This document shows positions 1-36,931 of a stretch of 64,000 bases of DNA, one piece after another (position 1 is the first letter of the stretch; every line of letters begins with the position of its first letter). Position numbers and translations under genes: made by a program. The notes beneath the pieces are model-generated. The model did not search any database. It was not told where the DNA came from and saw only the letters and a program-made list of their open reading frames with translations. The stretch is from an uncultured bacterium (GTDB taxonomy: Bacteria > Desulfobacterota > BSN033 > UBA1163). Location: contig CALLAL010000013.1 of assembly GCA_938002255.1 (NCBI GenBank), positions 1-64,000 on the forward strand, in the 5' to 3' direction.

Positions 1-1
1 G

Positions 2-136
2 CTTAAGGTTAACCGAAGCACCATCACTCTTCTCTACTATGAAAAGGCAAAAAGGGTTGAGCTTGACGTTCTCGATAAGCTCTGCAAATACTTTGGCTGC
101 TCTCTCAATGAGCTCTTGGAGTATAAGGAAGAATGA
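2..136 (+). CDS. XRE/Cro-type HTH regulator, 5' end outside window
   Basis: An open frame entering from the left edge encodes the last 44 residues of a small helix-turn-helix protein and stops at 134-136. The text includes NRSTITLLYYEKAKR, then LDVLDKLCKYFGCSLNELLEY. This matches the recognition helix and the last two helices of the short YozG-type Cro/C1 family, which are usually 65-75 residues long. The family binds DNA as a dimer and commonly regulates mobile-element genes. It converges on the topoisomerase gene that ends at 296. The 22-bp palindrome upstream of that gene is a candidate target for a regulator of this kind, but this is inference. The N-terminal part is not visible. Confidence 0.8.
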   Translation, partial: LKVNRSTITLLYYEKAKRVELDVLDKLCKYFGCSLNELLEYKEE

Positions 137-295
137 TCTTCTAAAATACTTCCGCTTCAATTTTTTTTGTAATTGATAATCTTCTGATTGGTGGGGTTTG
201 AAAAAAGTTTAGAATTCTTTTACTCGTTAGTTGGATTTTCAAACAGGGGATTCTTATAAATCGATAAAATCCTTCAGAATTGGGAATAAAGATCC

Positions 296-2968
296 CTACC
301 TAAAGACTCTATAATCTATTAATCTTTCTGTCTGTTCTTTAAAAGATCTGGAAGAGAGAAATAATACGCTATCGTCCAAGTAAGGTGTTTTATTCGTAGA
401 AATATTTATCTCTAATTCATCTTTTAATTTATTGGCCTGATTTCCAATCTCCTCTCTTAATGAATTAAGAACATCTACATATGGTGCGATTTCCTTTTTT
501 ATGGAGTCCTGGATCGTTTCTAACTTTTTTCTATATTTTCCTTCGATCCCGCTGAGCTTCTTTCGAATATCAAGGAGTTGATCCGTTTGCAGGGAAATAC
601 TGTCCCTTAGTATCTCGCTGAACTTATTCCTCTCAGATTCAACAATTTTGGGTAGATCCACAACTAATTCTTTATCTAAATACTTCTCTATATTTTCTTC
701 GACAATCTCCCGGAATTTCCCTGGCATTAATGCCTCAAGAGCATCTAATTCTGTGGCCCCCCTCTCTTTCTTTCCCCTCCTCGGTGCTTTAGGAAGGATT
801 GCAAATTCTTGACTCTCCATTTGTTCTTGGGTGAGGATAATCGGATGGACACAAACCTCTTTTTTATCGCTCAATAATCCTTCATTTCTGAGTCGGATTA
901 TTCGATGTTGAAGGGTTCTAGAAACGGTCACAGGCATATTCTCCCCTGCCGGATCATAATCAGAGATATATAGAATTACCGAAGGCTTTTCAGTCTTCAT
1001 TGCCCTTTCTCTTAAAAAAATCTCAATATTCGTGATACTCGCATACCCCACATTTTGAACCAGGATGATCCCATATTTCCTACATATATCCTCTAAGATA
1101 TCATTCATTGTGGCCTTTTCAGTCCATATTTCAAGATGAACGGGTTGTAATGCACTCAGGGTTCTAAATGCTAATTGCATATTTATCTTAAACTCGGGTA
1201 TTCTAAACTCCCCAATCCTGAGTGTATCTAATCTTATTTCTGGAAGAGACCAGGAAGGAAAATCTATTTCTTTTCCCGATTCAAACGAGGTTACAAATCT
1301 TCCATAAGGAGGGGGGGCCCTTCTATCAATTATTTTTAGAGGATCTAATAAACCCAGTTCTCTCGCAAACTTTGACGTTTTTAAAAGGTAAGCCCAACAA
1401 GAATCGGTATTCTCATAGGGTTTATTTGTGTGTCTCATCACCTTTGTGGGTTGGGATACGATTTGATAATGCAGCCGCCTTAAATGGGTCAATTTATTAT
1501 CGGGATTCAATCTATTCCATATCTCCTGGAACCATAAGGCCTGAGTAATTTTCGCATAGCTCTCACCTGTAAAAAAAGGGTCGTCTTTGTTGATTTTCAG
1601 ATACTTTGATCCCTGCTCAGTTAAATTCTCCTTTTCTAATAACGAGTAATTTTCATTTGAGACTTTATTCTTAATCTCCTTAATTTCTTTTTTATCAGAA
1701 TTACGCTGTCTTTCCCCTGAGGAGCTACGTGTTTTATAGTCTCGATTAATCTTTTTTATAAGCTTTAAAAATAATTTTTGTATATCTTTATTAATTTCAT
1801 CTGGAATCGATGGTTTTTTTGACCCACTAACAATCGGAAGATACGGAGTGTTAATATTAATGTAAAATTCAGTAATTTTTTTTAGGCTGATGCAATTCAT
1901 ACGAAGATTTATCTCAGCGGATATTACTCCATCTGAATAGATATCTATAGGTAAAATTGGAACGGGACTCTTGTTAATAAAAAACAATACTTCACCGTAT
2001 TTTTTAAAATATTTATTTTTATCTGGAACCAATTCGTCCGATGGTTTGGCCCACAATTCCACAATATAAGGAATTCTAAGAGATTCTTCCTCATCATCCG
2101 TTTCCTTTTCATAATAACCATATTTTTTAATATAAAAATAGCGCTTTGAATAACTCAATCTTCCAACGTATCCCAATCGGGAAGGCTTAACTGGCTTATG
2201 AAACATCTTTAATTTCTCTAAAATTTCTTTAGAGTCTTCTAAAGTGATTTCTTCTGCATTTCTTTGCTTCAGGAGACTTTGGATCCGCTTATCAAAAACC
2301 TTGATGCTATATCTTCCCCCGAATAATTCTTTAATCACATGAATTACTTTTTTATTTCTATAATCGATCGATTTCAATAATAAATGGAATGATCTTGAAT
2401 CATACCACCAGGGAGAACTGTAACCCTTATACTCAGGACCTTGAGCTAATTTATTTGCAAGACGCCCCCAAAATAAGTCTAACTCATCAATATTTTGGGG
2501 AAATTTAATATAAATTGTGGTTCCATCTTCATAATTATCACCCTCGGCTATCCGCTTATATGTTGTCCCTTTCTCCCCTGGCTCTAATAAAAGGGTTCTT
2601 CCTCGAGTTGAAACCTTTAAAGTTGCAGAATAACAATAAACCACACCCGCTACAAACCGTAAGCCTCTCCCCATATATCCACGTCTGGGATATCTCTCCC
2701 CCTTTGTAGAATAAGTCTTCCGATTAACTGAAAAAAGATAAGCTATCTCCTCATCCGAACCCGGGATACCTGGACCTTCATCAGATATAGAAACGTCATT
2801 ATTACCCCAATCAATAGAACAATAACCTTCCGAAGAATCAATAGCATTATCAACAAGTTCTTTTATTGCAAGAGCTATGTGATATTTCTCTCTTACGCCT
2901 GAAATTCTTGTAAGACCATCTGGTGTTAAGTAATCCAAATAATCATCCACATGGATTTCGGCTACCAT
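296..2968 (-). CDS. Single-chain type IIB DNA topoisomerase, Topo VIII-like (GHKL ATPase fused to Toprim)
   Basis: This 890-residue protein joins a Topo VI-B-like ATPase half to a Topo VI-A-like cleavage half. The GHKL motifs are ELVDNAID (37-44), DEGPGIP (63-69), GYMGRGL (97-103) and DGTT (148-151). A transducer-like segment with INKSPVPI lies near 331-338. A winged-helix segment carries LRRLHYQIV with Y501 as candidate DNA-cleaving tyrosine. The Toprim fold shows EIWTEK (613-618) and SDYDPAG (669-675). Residues about 775-855 look like a coiled coil. Fused A and B subunits define Topo VIII, described on free and integrated plasmids, which fits the integrated element here. The start has a GAGAGGTGA ribosome site. 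The gene is clearly more AT-rich than the chromosome to the right. Strand-passage activity is inferred; a GHKL/Toprim protein with another role, such as defence, is possible. Confidence 0.75.
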   Translation of the reverse strand: MVAEIHVDDYLDYLTPDGLTRISGVREKYHIALAIKELVDNAIDSSEGYCSIDWGNNDVSISDEGPGIPGSDEEIAYLFSVNRKTYSTKGERYPRRGYMGRGLRFVAGVVYCYSATLKVSTRGRTLLLEPGEKGTTYKRIAEGDNYEDGTTIYIKFPQNIDELDLFWGRLANKLAQGPEYKGYSSPWWYDSRSFHLLLKSIDYRNKKVIHVIKELFGGRYSIKVFDKRIQSLLKQRNAEEITLEDSKEILEKLKMFHKPVKPSRLGYVGRLSYSKRYFYIKKYGYYEKETDDEEESLRIPYIVELWAKPSDELVPDKNKYFKKYGEVLFFINKSPVPILPIDIYSDGVISAEINLRMNCISLKKITEFYININTPYLPIVSGSKKPSIPDEINKDIQKLFLKLIKKINRDYKTRSSSGERQRNSDKKEIKEIKNKVSNENYSLLEKENLTEQGSKYLKINKDDPFFTGESYAKITQALWFQEIWNRLNPDNKLTHLRRLHYQIVSQPTKVMRHTNKPYENTDSCWAYLLKTSKFARELGLLDPLKIIDRRAPPPYGRFVTSFESGKEIDFPSWSLPEIRLDTLRIGEFRIPEFKINMQLAFRTLSALQPVHLEIWTEKATMNDILEDICRKYGIILVQNVGYASITNIEIFLRERAMKTEKPSVILYISDYDPAGENMPVTVSRTLQHRIIRLRNEGLLSDKKEVCVHPIILTQEQMESQEFAILPKAPRRGKKERGATELDALEALMPGKFREIVEENIEKYLDKELVVDLPKIVESERNKFSEILRDSISLQTDQLLDIRKKLSGIEGKYRKKLETIQDSIKKEIAPYVDVLNSLREEIGNQANKLKDELEINISTNKTPYLDDSVLFLSSRSFKEQTERLIDYRVFR

Positions 2969-3016
2969 AAGAATTAAATCACCTCTCTTTTTTTACAGAA
3001 ATTGAGATTTTTGACT

Positions 3017-3047
3017 ATTTTACAGGCAAGCCTGTAAAAAATTTCAA
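3017..3047 (-). promoter_or_regulatory. Topoisomerase promoter with embedded 22-bp operator palindrome
   Basis: On the minus strand a -35-like TTGAAA (3042-3047) is followed 19 bases later by TAAAAT (3017-3022), or 17 bases later by TGTAAA. A perfect palindrome at 3018-3039, with arms TTTTACAGGC and GCCTGTAAAA around a 2-base centre, fills the spacer. An operator at this position would block RNA polymerase directly. It lies about 50 bases upstream of the topoisomerase start at 2968. The palindrome is seen directly; the promoter and repressor roles are inferred. Confidence 0.5.
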
Positions 3048-3199
3048 AAACCAAAATTTTTGCAATTTTCGATCTATTTAATTGCGTTCTATGGCTCACA
3101 AGTTGAATCTAACTATATGAAATTAAAATTAATTTTATTCTTATAAAAATTTACTCAATGATTGTCTCATCTTTGGTTTAAAATTGGAATTCTGGATTC

Positions 3200-3251
3200 G
3201 GATCAATTTTAATCAAATTCTGTGCCATATTAACCCGATAAAAATTGATCC
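3200..3251. repeat. Inverted repeat, 15-base arms with one mismatch
   Basis: The left arm at 3200-3214 (GGATCAATTTTAATC) and the right arm at 3237-3251 (GATAAAAATTGATCC) pair over 14 of 15 positions around a 22-base centre. The outer 11 bases are perfect. It lies in AT-rich non-coding DNA of the integrated element. A replication or transfer origin, a regulator site or an RNA hairpin are all possible; the sequence does not decide. Confidence 0.5.
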
Positions 3252-3349
3252 AACAAAAATTGAATAAAATATAATGATTTCCAATAATTATCTATTTTTA
3301 TAAGTAGCCTATTATAAAGATCGGTTTTTAAACCTGGTAAAATTTATTA

Positions 3350-3817
3350 TTATATTTTTTCTAATCCTAAGACCCTTAAAATTGGACATTCTTCGCAGTC
3401 CCTCACATTCTCCCCGATTAGCTTTATTAAATATGCCTCTTTCGCCCAAGATCTCCGCTTTCTCATTACAACCCTCTTCTTTATCTTCCTCGCTTCCTTG
3501 ATAAGGAGATTCCGCATCAACGGATTTATTTTAAAAATAGAACAAGCCTGATCTGCTACGACCATCGGCTTTATTGAAGGCTTACAGCTTATCGCCGCCT
3601 CCATCCAATCAAGGACCTTGGAAGGAAGTCGATACCCTTCTCCCAACCATCGGACCTCCCTCAATATTTTTTTGAAGAACTCTCCGTCTTTATCCCGAAT
3701 CCGAATAAGCAAACGCCTGAGGAACCATGGAAACTCCTTGAGCCTCTCGGATTCCATAATCTCACCAATCACCATATCCCAAAAACCCTTAGCCTCCTGA
3801 GATAACCTTTGAGCCAT
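3350..3817 (-). CDS. Hypothetical basic protein of the integrated element
   Basis: I do not recognise this 155-residue protein. It is predicted largely helical and basic, with runs such as KKRVVMRKRRSW in the second half. It ends with a short cysteine motif, DCEECPILRVLG, that could bind metal. An AAGGAGGT ribosome site sits 6 bases before the ATG at 3817, so translation looks real. It has no signal peptide or membrane segment. It lies between the topoisomerase gene and the divergent HD-domain gene; GC content is intermediate between the AT-rich topoisomerase gene and the chromosome. A DNA- or RNA-binding role would fit the charge but is a guess. Confidence 0.6.
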   Translation of the reverse strand: MAQRLSQEAKGFWDMVIGEIMESERLKEFPWFLRRLLIRIRDKDGEFFKKILREVRWLGEGYRLPSKVLDWMEAAISCKPSIKPMVVADQACSIFKINPLMRNLLIKEARKIKKRVVMRKRRSWAKEAYLIKLIGENVRDCEECPILRVLGLEKI

Positions 3818-3868
3818 AGGGGACCTCCTTAAAGGTGCAAAAATGAAGGTTAGGGCACCCCCTCCCCA

Positions 3869-3895
3869 CCCCCTCCCCCTGAAGGGGGAGGGGGG
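3869..3895. repeat. C/G-rich perfect hairpin
   Basis: CCCCCTCCCCCT at 3869-3880 pairs with AGGGGGAGGGGG at 3883-3894 around a GA loop, giving a 12-bp stem. A second shorter hairpin follows at 3946-3966 (CCCCTTTT / AAAAGGGG). The non-coding stretch 3818-4053 between divergent genes otherwise holds only the ribosome sites. The very GC-rich stem contrasts with its AT-rich surroundings and looks like a dispersed intergenic repeat; no T-run follows, so it is not a classical terminator. Confidence 0.45.
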
Positions 3896-4053
3896 AAGTG
3901 GGAACTATTTATTGATAAATATATTATTATTTGACACCCCCTTCCCCCCTTTTAAATCAAAAGGGGAATTAACCCTATCTACTAATAGTATTACTTCCCT
4001 AAAAGAAAAATTTGCCCGAAAAAAGTAATACCTTAATAGAAGGAGGTAAAATT

Positions 4054-5316
4054 ATGTGGCTTAAAAAGATTCTGGACTTCCTGGGAGGCCCGGAAGAGCC
4101 AGAGGAAGAAAAAACCCCGGCCAGGGAGGATAAAAAACCAATAACATTAAAAGAAGAAGCCAAACCCTCCTCTCCCCCACCCAAAACCCCAAAAATAAAA
4201 CCCCCGGAAGAGGAACTCCAGCTCGAAAAGAGAAGCCCCTACGTAAAAAAAATCCTAAAAGAATTCTATATCCCTTACCGCCATTCATTCGATACCCAGC
4301 GTGCTACCGAGGGCCTCCTCCTGCTCGTGGAGTTTCTCGACCAGGAAGGAGACTGCCCATCCATCGTCCGAAATTCAAAAGAACCAGAAGAAAGACTCCT
4401 CAATAAACTGGCCTCCCCCTTCCAGAAGGTTTCCCTCAAAGAACACAGTCTCAATGTAGCCCGGGAGATCGTAAAACTAATAAACCCAGGGTTAACTCCT
4501 GAAAGTCAAAATTCTTTTTCAGAGCCACTTATCCCTGAAGGGGTTATCATTGCTTTAGGACATGATCTGGGGAAAATCCCTTCGGTAAGAGACCAAAAAT
4601 TCTATCTCAAGGCAGACCATCCCATCCTCAGCGCCCTAAAACTCGAAGAAATCTTCTCCAAAGTTACCCCACCCCACTGGATAGAAAATGCTAAAGATTG
4701 CATTAAAAACCACCATCGGCCTTCTTCTACTACTTATACTACTCTTACTACTTACAAACCCCTCGAAACTCTCCTAAAGGAAGCAGACCGAAGAGCAAGA
4801 GAATTAGAGATTCTTAAATGTCACCCTGACCTTAAACCCAGACCCCCAAAAACGTGGCCGGATCCAAAGAAAATCCTCCAGCTCATCGTCCCTTTGATCA
4901 ATAAGATCCAGCCGAACAATAAATTCGCAGCCTTCTCCTGGGGATCTATCATCTTCGTACAACCCGATGCCCTCTACGACGCAGCAAAAAAACTCGCAAT
5001 CGAAGAAAAGATCGTTTCCTGGGACCTACTGCTGGAATCAGAAAAGAGAAGGATAGAAATTCAAATCGTCGACGCCCTTCGGAAAGAAAGGATGCTCGCT
5101 GAGGAGATCCCCCAAGGCCTCTACGGAAGAGTATGCGAAATAGAATACCCTAAACGAACCACCTCGATGATCCTTGTGCCAATCAAAATCGAAGCCTTAG
5201 AAAAACTCCCAAGCCAAATCATAAGAACCTATAAACACGGACACCTCGCCAAGATCCAGTCTGTAAAAATTAACCCCCTGAAACCACCCTGGGAGAGGCG
5301 GCCATTTTTTAAATGA
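4054..5316 (+). CDS. HD-domain phosphohydrolase-like protein of the integrated element
   Basis: This 420-residue protein starts at the ATG at 4054, preceded by AGGAGG; an ATG further upstream lacks this site. Residues 10-60 are a low-complexity charged and proline-rich segment. An HD-type metal site follows: H131 (KEHSLN), H170-D171 (GHDLGK), H220-H221 (NHHRP) and D245 (KEADRR). The family binds two metal ions and usually cleaves phosphate esters. The arrangement recalls the HD segment of TraI_2/MOBH proteins of integrative conjugative elements, but no relaxase histidine triad is seen, so calling it a relaxase is not supported. The C-terminal 150 residues are unrecognised. It heads a + strand run with the membrane hydrolase, excisionase-like protein and integrase. 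Confidence 0.6.
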   Translation: MWLKKILDFLGGPEEPEEEKTPAREDKKPITLKEEAKPSSPPPKTPKIKPPEEELQLEKRSPYVKKILKEFYIPYRHSFDTQRATEGLLLLVEFLDQEGDCPSIVRNSKEPEERLLNKLASPFQKVSLKEHSLNVAREIVKLINPGLTPESQNSFSEPLIPEGVIIALGHDLGKIPSVRDQKFYLKADHPILSALKLEEIFSKVTPPHWIENAKDCIKNHHRPSSTTYTTLTTYKPLETLLKEADRRARELEILKCHPDLKPRPPKTWPDPKKILQLIVPLINKIQPNNKFAAFSWGSIIFVQPDALYDAAKKLAIEEKIVSWDLLLESEKRRIEIQIVDALRKERMLAEEIPQGLYGRVCEIEYPKRTTSMILVPIKIEALEKLPSQIIRTYKHGHLAKIQSVKINPLKPPWERRPFFK

Positions 5317-5347: not shown

Positions 5348-5803
5348 ATGAAATGGATAAACCATCAAATGATCACGTTCATCTCCTTCTCCCTGTTTTT
5401 CGACTCATTAGGAGATAGTCTTCTTGCCTCCTGCAGCTCCGTCCTGCCAGATCTTTTAAAATCTAAAATCCTAAAACCTTTTCTCTTTAACCGCCCCCGG
5501 CTTCCACACAATCCCATCTTCTGGATTCTCCCCTTGGCTCTAATCTACTGTGGAAGTAAACTCCTCTCCCTCCTCTTTCCCATAGACTTCCTCCCTACAC
5601 CTGAAACCCTCCTCTGGCTCTTTGCCGCCGGCATCGGCTCCCATCTCCTCCTCGATGCCTTCTCCGATTACCCCATCGTTCTACCAAGGGGCAAAGAGAT
5701 CGCTTTCAAATGGTATGAAAACCAAACCCCATCTGAAGACCTCTTCGTCCTATTCTGTCTCCTTTTCATCTGCTCTCTTAAAATCCTTACGGAGGTTCTC
5801 TAA
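5348..5803 (+). CDS. YdjM/DUF457-type membrane-bound metal-dependent hydrolase
   Basis: This 151-residue protein has the features of the YdjM (LexA-regulated, inner-membrane) hydrolase family: an N-terminal NHQMITF, a SSVLPDLL segment with the conserved acidic residue, RLPHNPIFW, and GIGSHLLLDAFSDYP, where His and Asp would bind metal. Hydrophobic stretches at about 60-80, 85-105 and 130-148 suggest three membrane segments. The substrate is unknown for the family. It has a GGAGGT ribosome site and lies 31 bases after the HD-domain gene; its TAA overlaps an ATG of a tiny open frame. Co-transcription with its neighbours is likely. Confidence 0.65.
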   Translation: MKWINHQMITFISFSLFFDSLGDSLLASCSSVLPDLLKSKILKPFLFNRPRLPHNPIFWILPLALIYCGSKLLSLLFPIDFLPTPETLLWLFAAGIGSHLLLDAFSDYPIVLPRGKEIAFKWYENQTPSEDLFVLFCLLFICSLKILTEVL

Positions 5804-5871
5804 TGAAAAGACCCAAAGGATTGCCCTACTGCCCAACCTTAATGAAAAAGGAGCTCTGCGGGAATGGCTGA
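5803..5871 (+). CDS. Possible 22-residue linker ORF
   Basis: The stop of the membrane hydrolase overlaps an ATG (TAATG at 5801-5805) that opens a 22-codon frame, MKRPKGLPYCPTLMKKELCG then NG. It ends at 5869-5871, inside the start of the next gene at 5864. Such overlap suggests translational coupling. It could be a true micropeptide with two cysteines, a decayed gene fragment, or chance. No family is recognised. Confidence 0.3.
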   Translation: MKRPKGLPYCPTLMKKELCGNG

Positions 5872-6265
5872 AAAAGAAATGATCGAAAAACCCACTACAA
5901 AATCCAGCGGAGAGAATAAATTCATGGATGTCCAGGAAGTAGCCTCCTATCTTCACGTCAAACGATCAACCGTCTACCAGTGGACAAGTGCGAAAACTCT
6001 CCCCTGTTATAAATTTGGCCGATTGATAAGGATCCGAAAAAATGATCTAGAAGAGTGGATTGAAAAGCATCGAATCGAGATAAACGACAAGGAGAGAAGG
6101 ATAAAAGAAACCTTTCGATCCCCCCAGAGGCCGATCCTTGATATCGATCGCCTCATCAAGCGATGTATTGAAGAGGAGAAAGGAAAAGGGTATACTGCCT
6201 CTCTGGAGAAACCAGGGAAAGACAAGGGCCTCGGAAAGGAGGGAAAATATGGGTCTTTATATTAG
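5864..6265 (+). CDS. Excisionase-like MerR-type HTH DNA-binding protein
   Basis: This 133-residue protein contains the helix-turn-helix 17 (excisionase/AlpA) fold at about residues 22-68: FMDVQEVASYLHVKRSTVYQW, then LPCYKFGRLIRIRKNDLEEW. These proteins bind att or promoter DNA and steer integrase toward excision or regulate element genes. The C-terminal 60 residues are charged and of unknown use. The ATG at 5864 has AAGGAG about 10 bases upstream. The gene overlaps the integrase start at 6249 by 17 bases, a typical xis-int arrangement. Confidence 0.75.
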   Translation: MAEKEMIEKPTTKSSGENKFMDVQEVASYLHVKRSTVYQWTSAKTLPCYKFGRLIRIRKNDLEEWIEKHRIEINDKERRIKETFRSPQRPILDIDRLIKRCIEEEKGKGYTASLEKPGKDKGLGKEGKYGSLY

Positions 6266-7325
6266 AGGCCAAACCTGGTGGATGAGCTTTACCTATAGGG
6301 GAAGACAATACAGAAAATCGACAGAAACTAATGACAAAAAGGTTGCAGAAAAGATTTATTACAAACTCCGAACCCTAATTGCCGAAGGGAAATGGTTCGA
6401 GAAGTCACCGGGCGAAGAAATCACCTTCAGGGAGATGATCAATAAATATCTAAACGAACACTCCAGGATAAATAAGACGCCTAAATCTTATGATCGGGAC
6501 AAAGAGCTCGCCAATCATCTCAATCAGTTCTTCGGAGAGCTCATGCTTACGGAAGTTACCCCCAGACATATCTATGAATATAAAGTTGTGAGACGCAAAG
6601 AAGGGGCTTCTCCACGAACCATTAACTATGAGCTCTCCCTCATGAGCCACGCCTTCAATCTCGCAAGAAAAGAGTGGGAGTGGATAAATGAAAATCCTGT
6701 CAATAAGGTTTCAAGAGAAAAAGTCAACAACATGAGGGAACGGTGGCTTACCTTTGAAGAGGAGGAAAGACTTCTTAAGGCCTCTCCCGGATGGCTTCAG
6801 GAACTCATCATCTTTTCTCTCGAAACCGGGCTCAGGCAGGGGGAAGTGTTGAATCTTCAGTGGCCCCAGGTGGATCTTTTCAGAAAAACCATCACTATCC
6901 TGGAACAGAAAAACAGAGCAAAAGACGTTTTACCCCTGAACGAGAGGGCTTTGGAGATCCTAAAAGCAAGGGCAAAAGTCAGACACATAAGGACAAATTA
7001 TGTGTTTTTTAACAAAAACGGAGTTAGATTCAAGGTAAGCAACCTTCATAGAGCTTTCTATTCGGCCCTGAGTCGTGCTTCTATTAAAAATTTCCGGTGG
7101 CATGATTTGCGTCACACTTTCGCAACAAGACTCGTTCAGGCTGGAGTAGATCTTTATACCGTTCAGAAGCTTGGTAGATGGAAAGAAGTTAAGATGGTCC
7201 AAAGGTATGCTCACCATTACCCCGAGAGTTTAAGGAAAGGAATTGAGGTTTTGGATGAAATTAGGAGAAAATTTATCACAATTTTATCACAATCGGAAGG
7301 ATTCAAAATTGAGGATAGTACATAA
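6249..7325 (+). CDS. Tyrosine recombinase (site-specific integrase)
   Basis: This 358-residue phage-type integrase starts at ATG 6249, chosen because AAGGAGGG lies just upstream and the protein then begins like an AP2-type arm-binding domain (GLYIRGQTWWMSFTYRGRQYRKST). A core-binding SAM-like domain spans about 55-150. The catalytic set is visible: R196 (TGLRQGE), K221, H285-R288 (HDLRHTF), W311 (LGRWKE) in the His/Trp position, and Y320 (VQRYAHH). It cuts and rejoins att sites through Tyr320. Its stop is 14 bases from the 3' end of tRNA-Gln, so that tRNA is the likely attachment gene. It should act with the excisionase-like protein it overlaps. Confidence 0.92.
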   Translation: MGLYIRGQTWWMSFTYRGRQYRKSTETNDKKVAEKIYYKLRTLIAEGKWFEKSPGEEITFREMINKYLNEHSRINKTPKSYDRDKELANHLNQFFGELMLTEVTPRHIYEYKVVRRKEGASPRTINYELSLMSHAFNLARKEWEWINENPVNKVSREKVNNMRERWLTFEEEERLLKASPGWLQELIIFSLETGLRQGEVLNLQWPQVDLFRKTITILEQKNRAKDVLPLNERALEILKARAKVRHIRTNYVFFNKNGVRFKVSNLHRAFYSALSRASIKNFRWHDLRHTFATRLVQAGVDLYTVQKLGRWKEVKMVQRYAHHYPESLRKGIEVLDEIRRKFITILSQSEGFKIEDST

Positions 7326-7339
7326 CTCTCTGAAATCAT

Positions 7340-7413
7340 TGGCTGGGGGACGAGGATTCGAACCTCGATTCACGGAGTCAGAGTCCGTTGTCCTACCATT
7401 GAACGATCCCCCA
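7340..7413 (-). tRNA. tRNA-Gln(CTG), element attachment gene
   Basis: A full cloverleaf reads on the minus strand: acceptor TGGGGGA paired with TCCCCCA, D arm with TTCAATGGTAGGA, anticodon stem ACGGA/TCCGT with loop CTCTGAC (anticodon CTG), T arm GAGGTTCGAATCCTC, discriminator G and an encoded CCA at 7340-7342. Length is 74 with CCA. It lies just downstream of hisS in the same direction. Its 3' end faces the integrase gene, the usual arrangement for an element inserted into a tRNA 3' end. The second copy of the tRNA end, marking the other element border, is not found in 1-7339. Confidence 0.95.
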
Positions 7414-16775: not shown

Positions 16776-17000
16776 GTAACCCGTCAGTGATGGGGTGTTT
16801 TCGGTTTAAAAGGGTTGGAACGTTCCTCCTCCAAAACCTTGAAGAGCGGTTATAAGAGGTTACCTCATCGGGGCCCTCATGCCCTTTGAATCGGATTTTT
16901 TTGAATCAGATTGGGTCGTTTTGACGAACAGAGGTTTCGCTATAAGGTTTTTCCGAGGCAACCTCCAAACCCTTTTTTATTTCTTTAACTGAGGGGTTAC
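16776..17000. mobile_element. IS66-type miniature inverted-repeat element, copy 1
   Basis: This 225-bp non-coding element begins GTAACCCGTCAGT and ends ACTGAGGGGTTAC, 13-base terminal inverted repeats with one mismatch. It is flanked by a perfect 8-base duplication GAAGGGGA at 16768-16775 and 17001-17008. Its reverse complement matches the element at 36706-36931 at about 90% along the full length. IS66-family ends start GTAA and make 8-base duplications, so it is probably a non-autonomous derivative mobilised by such a transposase; none is encoded in this window. It fills the gap between the uvrC stop and the ugpB-like promoter. Confidence 0.88.
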
Positions 17001-17015
17001 GAAGGGGAAAACCAT

Positions 17016-36705: not shown

Positions 36706-36931
36706 GTAACCCCTCAGTTAAAGAAATAAAATAGGGTTGGGAGGTTGCTTCGGAAAAACCTTGAAGCGAAACCTCTGTTCGTTAAAACGACCCAATCTGA
36801 TTCAAAAAAATCCGATTCAAAGGGCATGAGGGCCCTGATGGTGGTAACCTTTTATAACCGCTATTCAAGGTTTTGGAGGAGGAACGTTCCAGTCCTTTTA
36901 AACCGAAAACCTCCCATCACTGAGGGGTTAC
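36706..36931. mobile_element. IS66-type miniature inverted-repeat element, copy 2
   Basis: This 226-bp non-coding element has perfect 13-base ends, GTAACCCCTCAGT and ACTGAGGGGTTAC. A perfect 8-base duplication CCGGGTGC flanks it at 36698-36705 and 36932-36939. It is in the opposite orientation to copy 1 (16776-17000) and about 90% identical over the whole length. The 381-base gap between thioesterase and flavoprotein genes (36645-37025) is mostly this element. No transposase is encoded, so it must be moved by an enzyme encoded elsewhere. Confidence 0.9.

Follow-up and report, generated by a model that had tools for sequence, protein, structure and literature searches.

Organization of the fused topoisomerase gene

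The window, the whole 64,000-nucleotide stretch of DNA analyzed here, carries near its first base a gene for a topoisomerase-like protein of 890 residues (Table 1). The minus strand of this interval, which the preliminary description did not specify, is a single uninterrupted open reading frame, and the plus strand is riddled with stop codons. The ATG start codon is preceded about 10 bases upstream by AGAGGTGA. The protein is composed of an N-terminal B module, a charged linker, an A module, and a C-terminal helical tail. The combination of GHKL and Toprim parts in one 890-residue chain, as given in the preliminary description, is borne out by the uninterrupted reading frame and by the positions of the motifs. 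A protein of 898 residues encoded on a contig of a Bacteroidota metagenome-assembled genome (L016) is 46% identical and colinear throughout, including the linker, core, and tail. Because this colinear relative comes from another metagenome-assembled genome, the fusion of the B and A modules is not an artefact. The fused gene of L016 adjoins a type III restriction-modification gene pair (L016 4334-8766).

Table 1 Features of the fused topoisomerase gene and of the surrounding element (window coordinates).
Feature	Coordinates	Strand	Evidence or remarks
Whole topoisomerase gene: fused GHKL-transducer and winged-helix/Toprim, 890 aa	296..2968	-	colinear 898-aa relative L016, 46% identity
B module, residues 1-390: GHKL ATPase, predicted H2TH-like helices (~185-260), transducer	1799..2968	-	
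Charged linker, residues 391-450	1619..1798	-	low-confidence helices in model; also in L016
A module, residues 451-765: Toprim and a winged helix bearing the catalytic Tyr	674..1618	-	
R497xxxY501 catalytic tyrosine motif	1466..1480	-	invariant 76/76
Toprim glutamate E617	1118..1120	-	invariant 76/76
Toprim DxD, D670/D672	953..961	-	invariant 76/76
E740, putative fourth acid / clasp residue	749..751	-	kept 72/76
Helical tail at the C terminus, residues 766-890, with terminal LFLSSRSFKEQ motif	299..673	-	
155-aa protein upstream of topoisomerase gene	3350..3817	-	no match in Pfam, NCBIfam, PADLOC, PHROGs, plasmids
HD-domain protein	4012..5316	+	Pfam HD above cut-off
Small membrane protein, weakly YdjM-like	5348..5803	+	below Pfam cut-off
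Excisionase-type HTH protein	5864..6265	+	HTH_17 and TIGR01764 above cut-off
Tyrosine integrase	6252..7325	+	Phage_integrase E 7e-36
att repeat, 3' part of tRNA-Gln	7325..7386		second copy at G000:C5:11586-11647
tRNA-Gln (CTG), integration target	7340..7413	-	ARAGORN

The integrated element

The topoisomerase gene belongs to an element integrated at a tRNA-Gln gene, in agreement with the tRNA-associated element proposed earlier. The integrase gene lies beside the tRNA gene, and a search of the host genome located a second copy of window positions 7325-7386 on contig C5, with 61 of 62 bases identical (98%). An integrated element should be flanked by such an att repeat, and this 62-bp copy marks its other end. 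Contig C5 extends for 335 bp more from the att copy and then ends. The AT-rich composition, described previously as unlike that of the host, is evident as a GC content of 35–37% over positions 1-4000, against approximately 44–50% over most of the remaining window.

The window begins at a contig end and thus covers no more of the element than its last 7.3 kb. Window positions 1-141 exactly equal the end of contig C21, which fits an assembly overlap of k = 141. Both the window contig and C21 probably continue into one common contig that the bin does not contain. The assembly therefore lacks the middle of the element, which a search by composition and contig ends did not recover. In seven genomes of the same genus, hisS adjoins the tRNA-Gln gene. 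The stretches of these genomes that were examined do not contain the integrase region, and the C5 flank was not found next to their tRNA-Gln gene. Neither the HD gene nor a full-length match to the topoisomerase gene was found in the related genomes searched. The plasmid relatives of the HD protein, from Geobacter, Desulfosarcina, Pelobacter, and Campylobacter, match its HD part alone. The 155-residue protein was considered as a conserved third subunit comparable to the products of the 159- and 163-residue genes beside Topo VIII (L002, L003), and was rejected as it has no blastp similarity to them.

Two repeated sequences were observed in the host genome. A 209-bp segment of contig C59 (G000:C59:131-339, L200) is 98.6% identical to C5:11634-11842 (L143) and duplicates the element's left end elsewhere on the chromosome, beside a CAGAGTCC-like core. 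This left-end copy is perhaps what remains of a previous insertion. Copies of a dispersed repeat, about 226 bp long and 93–95% identical, lie in opposite orientations at window positions 16776-17004 and 36706-36931, and another lies on contig C59 (L200 9306-9536).

Structure of the ATPase half

The B module contains a GHKL domain recognized by the Pfam profiles HATPase_c and HATPase_c_3 above cut-off at residues 31-158. The GHKL ATPase motifs claimed from the first reading are present: the N-box E37/N41, the G1 box D63xG65xG67, and the G2 box G97xxG100xG102. Residues 185-260, approximately, are predicted from the domain order and from their helices to be H2TH-like. The transducer contains the invariant K384 within a TPY.P...K.P stretch that resembles the end of the Topo VI-B transducer.

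Residues 8-386 match single-chain proteins encoded on plasmids of Paenibacillus, Pseudomonas, and Methylobacterium. The reference Topo VIII is the plasmid-borne protein of P. polymyxa, and Topo VIII from this species relaxes supercoils (PMC7614492). The B module is 31% identical to the plasmid Topo VIII of P. polymyxa (blastp, E 3e-42). An interpretation of the P. polymyxa matches as separate ATPase subunits was rejected, because their full open reading frames contain the Toprim half. The predicted model of the full-length protein has a pLDDT of 66.7, with the transducer part below 50 and of low confidence. The first three PDB matches of this model are Topo VI-B (1mx0, the best) and Top6B of M. 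mazei, and MutL and GyrB rank lower.

Structure and active site of the cleavage half

The residues R497, Y501, E617, K618, G641, D670, D672, and G675 show no variation among 76 aligned A modules, and E740 is present in 72 of them. The tyrosine put forward earlier as the candidate for cleavage, Y501, is in the right position, and the Toprim DxD site was found at D670/D672. The active site of M. mazei Top6A is formed by R102/Y106 with E202, D254, D256, and E342 (PMC13040014). R497/Y501, E617, and D670/D672 of the window protein correspond to R102/Y106, E202, and D254/D256 of Top6A, and the spacing between the arginine and the tyrosine is equal. Judging by position and role, E740 would be the counterpart of E342. 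In enzymes of type IIB, the tyrosine acts against the Toprim domain of the partner, the two being approximately 10 Å apart before cleavage (PMC13040014).

The monomer model of the A module (AF2) reached a pLDDT of 86.6 and a pTM of 0.81. Its best PDB matches are Top6A structures (1d3y and that of M. mazei), followed by Spo11. The TM-scores of the fold matches are modest, at 0.16–0.47. A search of a viral structure library gave no significant match, and the Pfam profiles TP6A_N and Topo-VIb_trans did not match the 890-residue protein. In profile comparison, the A module matches Topo VI-A itself weakly (hhalign E 0.002, probability 13%). The same comparison yielded E 4e-37 for Mini-A and E 5e-8 for the A module of canonical Topo VIII. 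The family phrog_6247, annotated as DNA topoisomerase and representing the phage Mini-A family, matches the A module with E 2.8e-17 in PHROGs, and the phage relatives of the module carry a topoisomerase annotation. Residues 457-888 match stand-alone proteins of about 500 residues on haloarchaeal plasmids, including pR1SE (L009).

The window protein resembles Topo VI (Top6A/Top6B) and Spo11 in the fold of both halves and in the active-site residues. In contrast to Topo VI, which is encoded by two genes and forms a heterotetramer, it is the product of one gene and has marginal sequence similarity.

The C-terminal tail was described beforehand as a coiled extension. A helical tail exists, but it is not peculiar to this protein, since long Mini-As also have it. 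The tail helices end in the motif (L/I)x(D/S)SxRx(Y/F)xxQ, which is common to nearly all long Mini-As, among them the stand-alone proteins of haloarchaeal plasmids such as pR1SE, and which the short Mini-As of approximately 300 residues lack. The motif is a mark of the long Mini-A subfamily. Two long Mini-As (L024 and L068) close with an extra zinc-ribbon-like cysteine motif.

Ancestry of the two modules

The window protein and its L016 relative are placed together in the trees of both modules. In the tree of B modules, the pair is sister to canonical Topo VIII, with support of 99.9/100 and, under the mixture model, 99/99. In the tree of A modules, the pair lies inside the long Mini-As, nearest to proteins from Methanotrichaceae (L018) and Desulfovirgula (L023); the sister relationship with L018 has a support of 100/100 under the simpler model and 93–94 under the mixture model. 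Canonical Topo VIII A modules form one clade with a support of 100, apart from the window A module. Forcing the window A module and the canonical Topo VIII A modules into a joint clade costs 12–15 log units (AU p 0.062 and 0.044).

The comparison with Topo VIII of the P. polymyxa plasmid type reveals both common and distinct features. Both are single chains of B and A modules encoded on mobile elements, with approximately 30% homology in the GHKL and transducer regions. The window protein has the B-A fusion found in most members of the family, GHKL and transducer homology with intact motifs, and carriage on an integrated element. However, its A module is on the long Mini-A branch and does not group with that of Topo VIII. 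The canonical Topo VIII A module contains a DPRG...PHTGEEIPLGT stretch, which is missing from the window A module, and the window protein is about 140 residues longer. The A module shares the winged helix, the Toprim core, and the set of active-site residues with Mini-As of the phage NP1/PaMx25 type, which, however, stand alone, whereas the window module is fused to an ATPase.

The assignment of the ATPase half to Topo VIII and of the cleavage half to the Mini-A family is supported at the level of sequence. The identification as Topo VIII-like in the preliminary description therefore holds for a single-chain protein resembling a type IIB topoisomerase, with the ATPase half of Topo VIII, and fails for the cleavage half, which is that of a Mini-A. 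The label Topo VIII alone is incomplete for the 890-residue protein. A hybrid of Topo VIII and Mini-A may already stand described in the literature.

A module swap between type IIB subfamilies has moderate support from these sequence comparisons, with AU p values of 0.04–0.06. The B modules outside the pair of Topo VIII and the window protein (L210-L212 and L239) carry canonical-type A modules, and the window A module thus looks like a replacement, which is the simpler history. The protein could instead be an ordinary Topo VIII that originated from one ancient B-A fusion, with the canonical A modules diverging later and no swap of modules. The common single-chain order and the clear Topo VIII character of the B module fit such a history, and because the AU values are borderline against a joint A clade, it retains some weight. 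We nevertheless consider it unlikely, since the window A module is 31–34% identical to stand-alone long Mini-As, with which it has the C-terminal tail motif in common, and, at a cut-off of E 1e-3, the profile of the long A modules missed those of canonical Topo VIII. The occurrence of canonical-type A modules with B modules from outside the clade also argues against it.

Proposed mechanism

We consider it likely that the tRNA-integrated element encodes, in the window protein, a type IIB topoisomerase that acts as a homodimer, depends on ATP, and is assembled from a Topo VIII ATPase and a long Mini-A cleavage module. The single chain contains the full set of catalytic residues of a type IIB topoisomerase. 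Two chains would dimerize through their Toprim/winged-helix cores and, upon ATP binding, also by way of the GHKL domains. A transient double-strand break would be introduced into one duplex by Y501 of one chain, together with a metal held by E617, D670, and D672 of the partner's Toprim domain. A stagger of two bases is expected by homology. The GHKL gate would shut with ATP, sensed by K384, a second duplex would pass, and the break would be resealed. We speculate that the enzyme relaxes or decatenates the DNA of the element during excision or replication. The activities of Topo VIII were reviewed as weak, and many members of the family seem to be partly inactivated (PMC7614492).

The restriction-modification neighbors of two relatives, the gene pair next to the L016 topoisomerase and a restriction endonuclease adjoining the P. 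polymyxa Topo VIII, keep alive the idea of a defence nuclease, whose Toprim/tyrosine core would, like JetD/MksG or Gabija, cleave invading DNA while the GHKL domain serves as a sensor or switch. Wadjet/MksBEFG and Gabija employ Topo VI-like Toprim dimers (PMC13040014). Such a function is nevertheless improbable for the window protein, which retains the full catalytic tyrosine motif. PADLOC gave no match, the element genes seen include no JetABC-like or other SMC-type partners, and neither JetD/MksG nor GajA is among the PDB fold matches listed. A closer kinship to a GHKL/Toprim defence family, named at the outset as a finding that would speak against a topoisomerase, is thus not apparent, the best folds being Top6B and Top6A. 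Similarly improbable is a Spo11-like enzyme whose programmed double-strand breaks would, with no strand passage, initiate the element's excision, replication, or recombination: it would accord with Spo11 being among the best fold matches of the A module, with the cleavage-only activity of A. degensii Topo VIII (PMC7614492), and with stand-alone Mini-As that have no B gene, but every ATPase and transducer residue that a strand-passage cycle requires is intact here.

Distribution of the modules and implications of the fusion

Mini-As are known chiefly from phages and archaeal viruses. The long Mini-As found here stand alone on haloarchaeal plasmids, in phages, and in other genomes. No GHKL or B gene was detected beside them on five of five phage contigs and seven of eight haloarchaeal plasmids; the eighth plasmid has one weak, sub-threshold GHKL match. 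In L064, the Mini-A gene is near polymerase/exonuclease-like and dUTPase-like genes, which suggests a role in replication. In genome and viral collections, relatives were found by alignment-based scans; single-sequence scans returned none. The fused form is rare: a third fused member was not found in 395 genomes of the phylum of the window, in 396 genomes of the phylum of L016, or in the viral contigs.

No function is known for Mini-A proteins, and up to 2021 neither a Topo VIII nor a Mini-A from archaea had been characterized (PMC8185306, PMC8084294). Because a Mini-A core occurs naturally in one chain with a complete ATPase, Mini-As are predicted to cut DNA by type IIB chemistry. The fusion also predicts that Mini-As can be driven by an ATPase, either fused or in trans, and the hybrid suggests an exchange of modules between type IIB subfamilies. 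We give even weight to, and against, a broader hypothesis that the fusion is a Rosetta stone. According to it, the Mini-As of phages and haloarchaeal plasmids would be cleavage cores workable under a GHKL ATPase, type IIB enzymes would have interchangeable A and B modules, reshuffled two or more times on mobile elements, and the window enzyme would be a hybrid of both subfamilies. Single-chain type IIB topoisomerases are already known as a kind of enzyme, and the new aspect is the apparent joining of a Topo VIII ATPase to a Mini-A cleavage core in one of them. The protein offers one polypeptide for structural work in a family hitherto known for weak activities.

The single chains called T8n (L038, L045, and L052, including Nitrospiraceae) also combine a GHKL half with a Mini-A-like A module. 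Unlike in the window protein, their B module is very distant (16–20% identity), its G1 box is degenerate, with N in place of D63, and the A module is outside the long clade. In these chains the two module types were apparently paired a second time, separately, and the ATPase activity has possibly been lost. Two phage-like contigs carry a split Topo VIII, in which the B gene is directly followed by a canonical-type A gene (L211 5908-8542 and L212 3378-5998). A genome from the same genus as the host (G007) encodes a Mini-A-like protein of 284 residues (L006 1177-2028).
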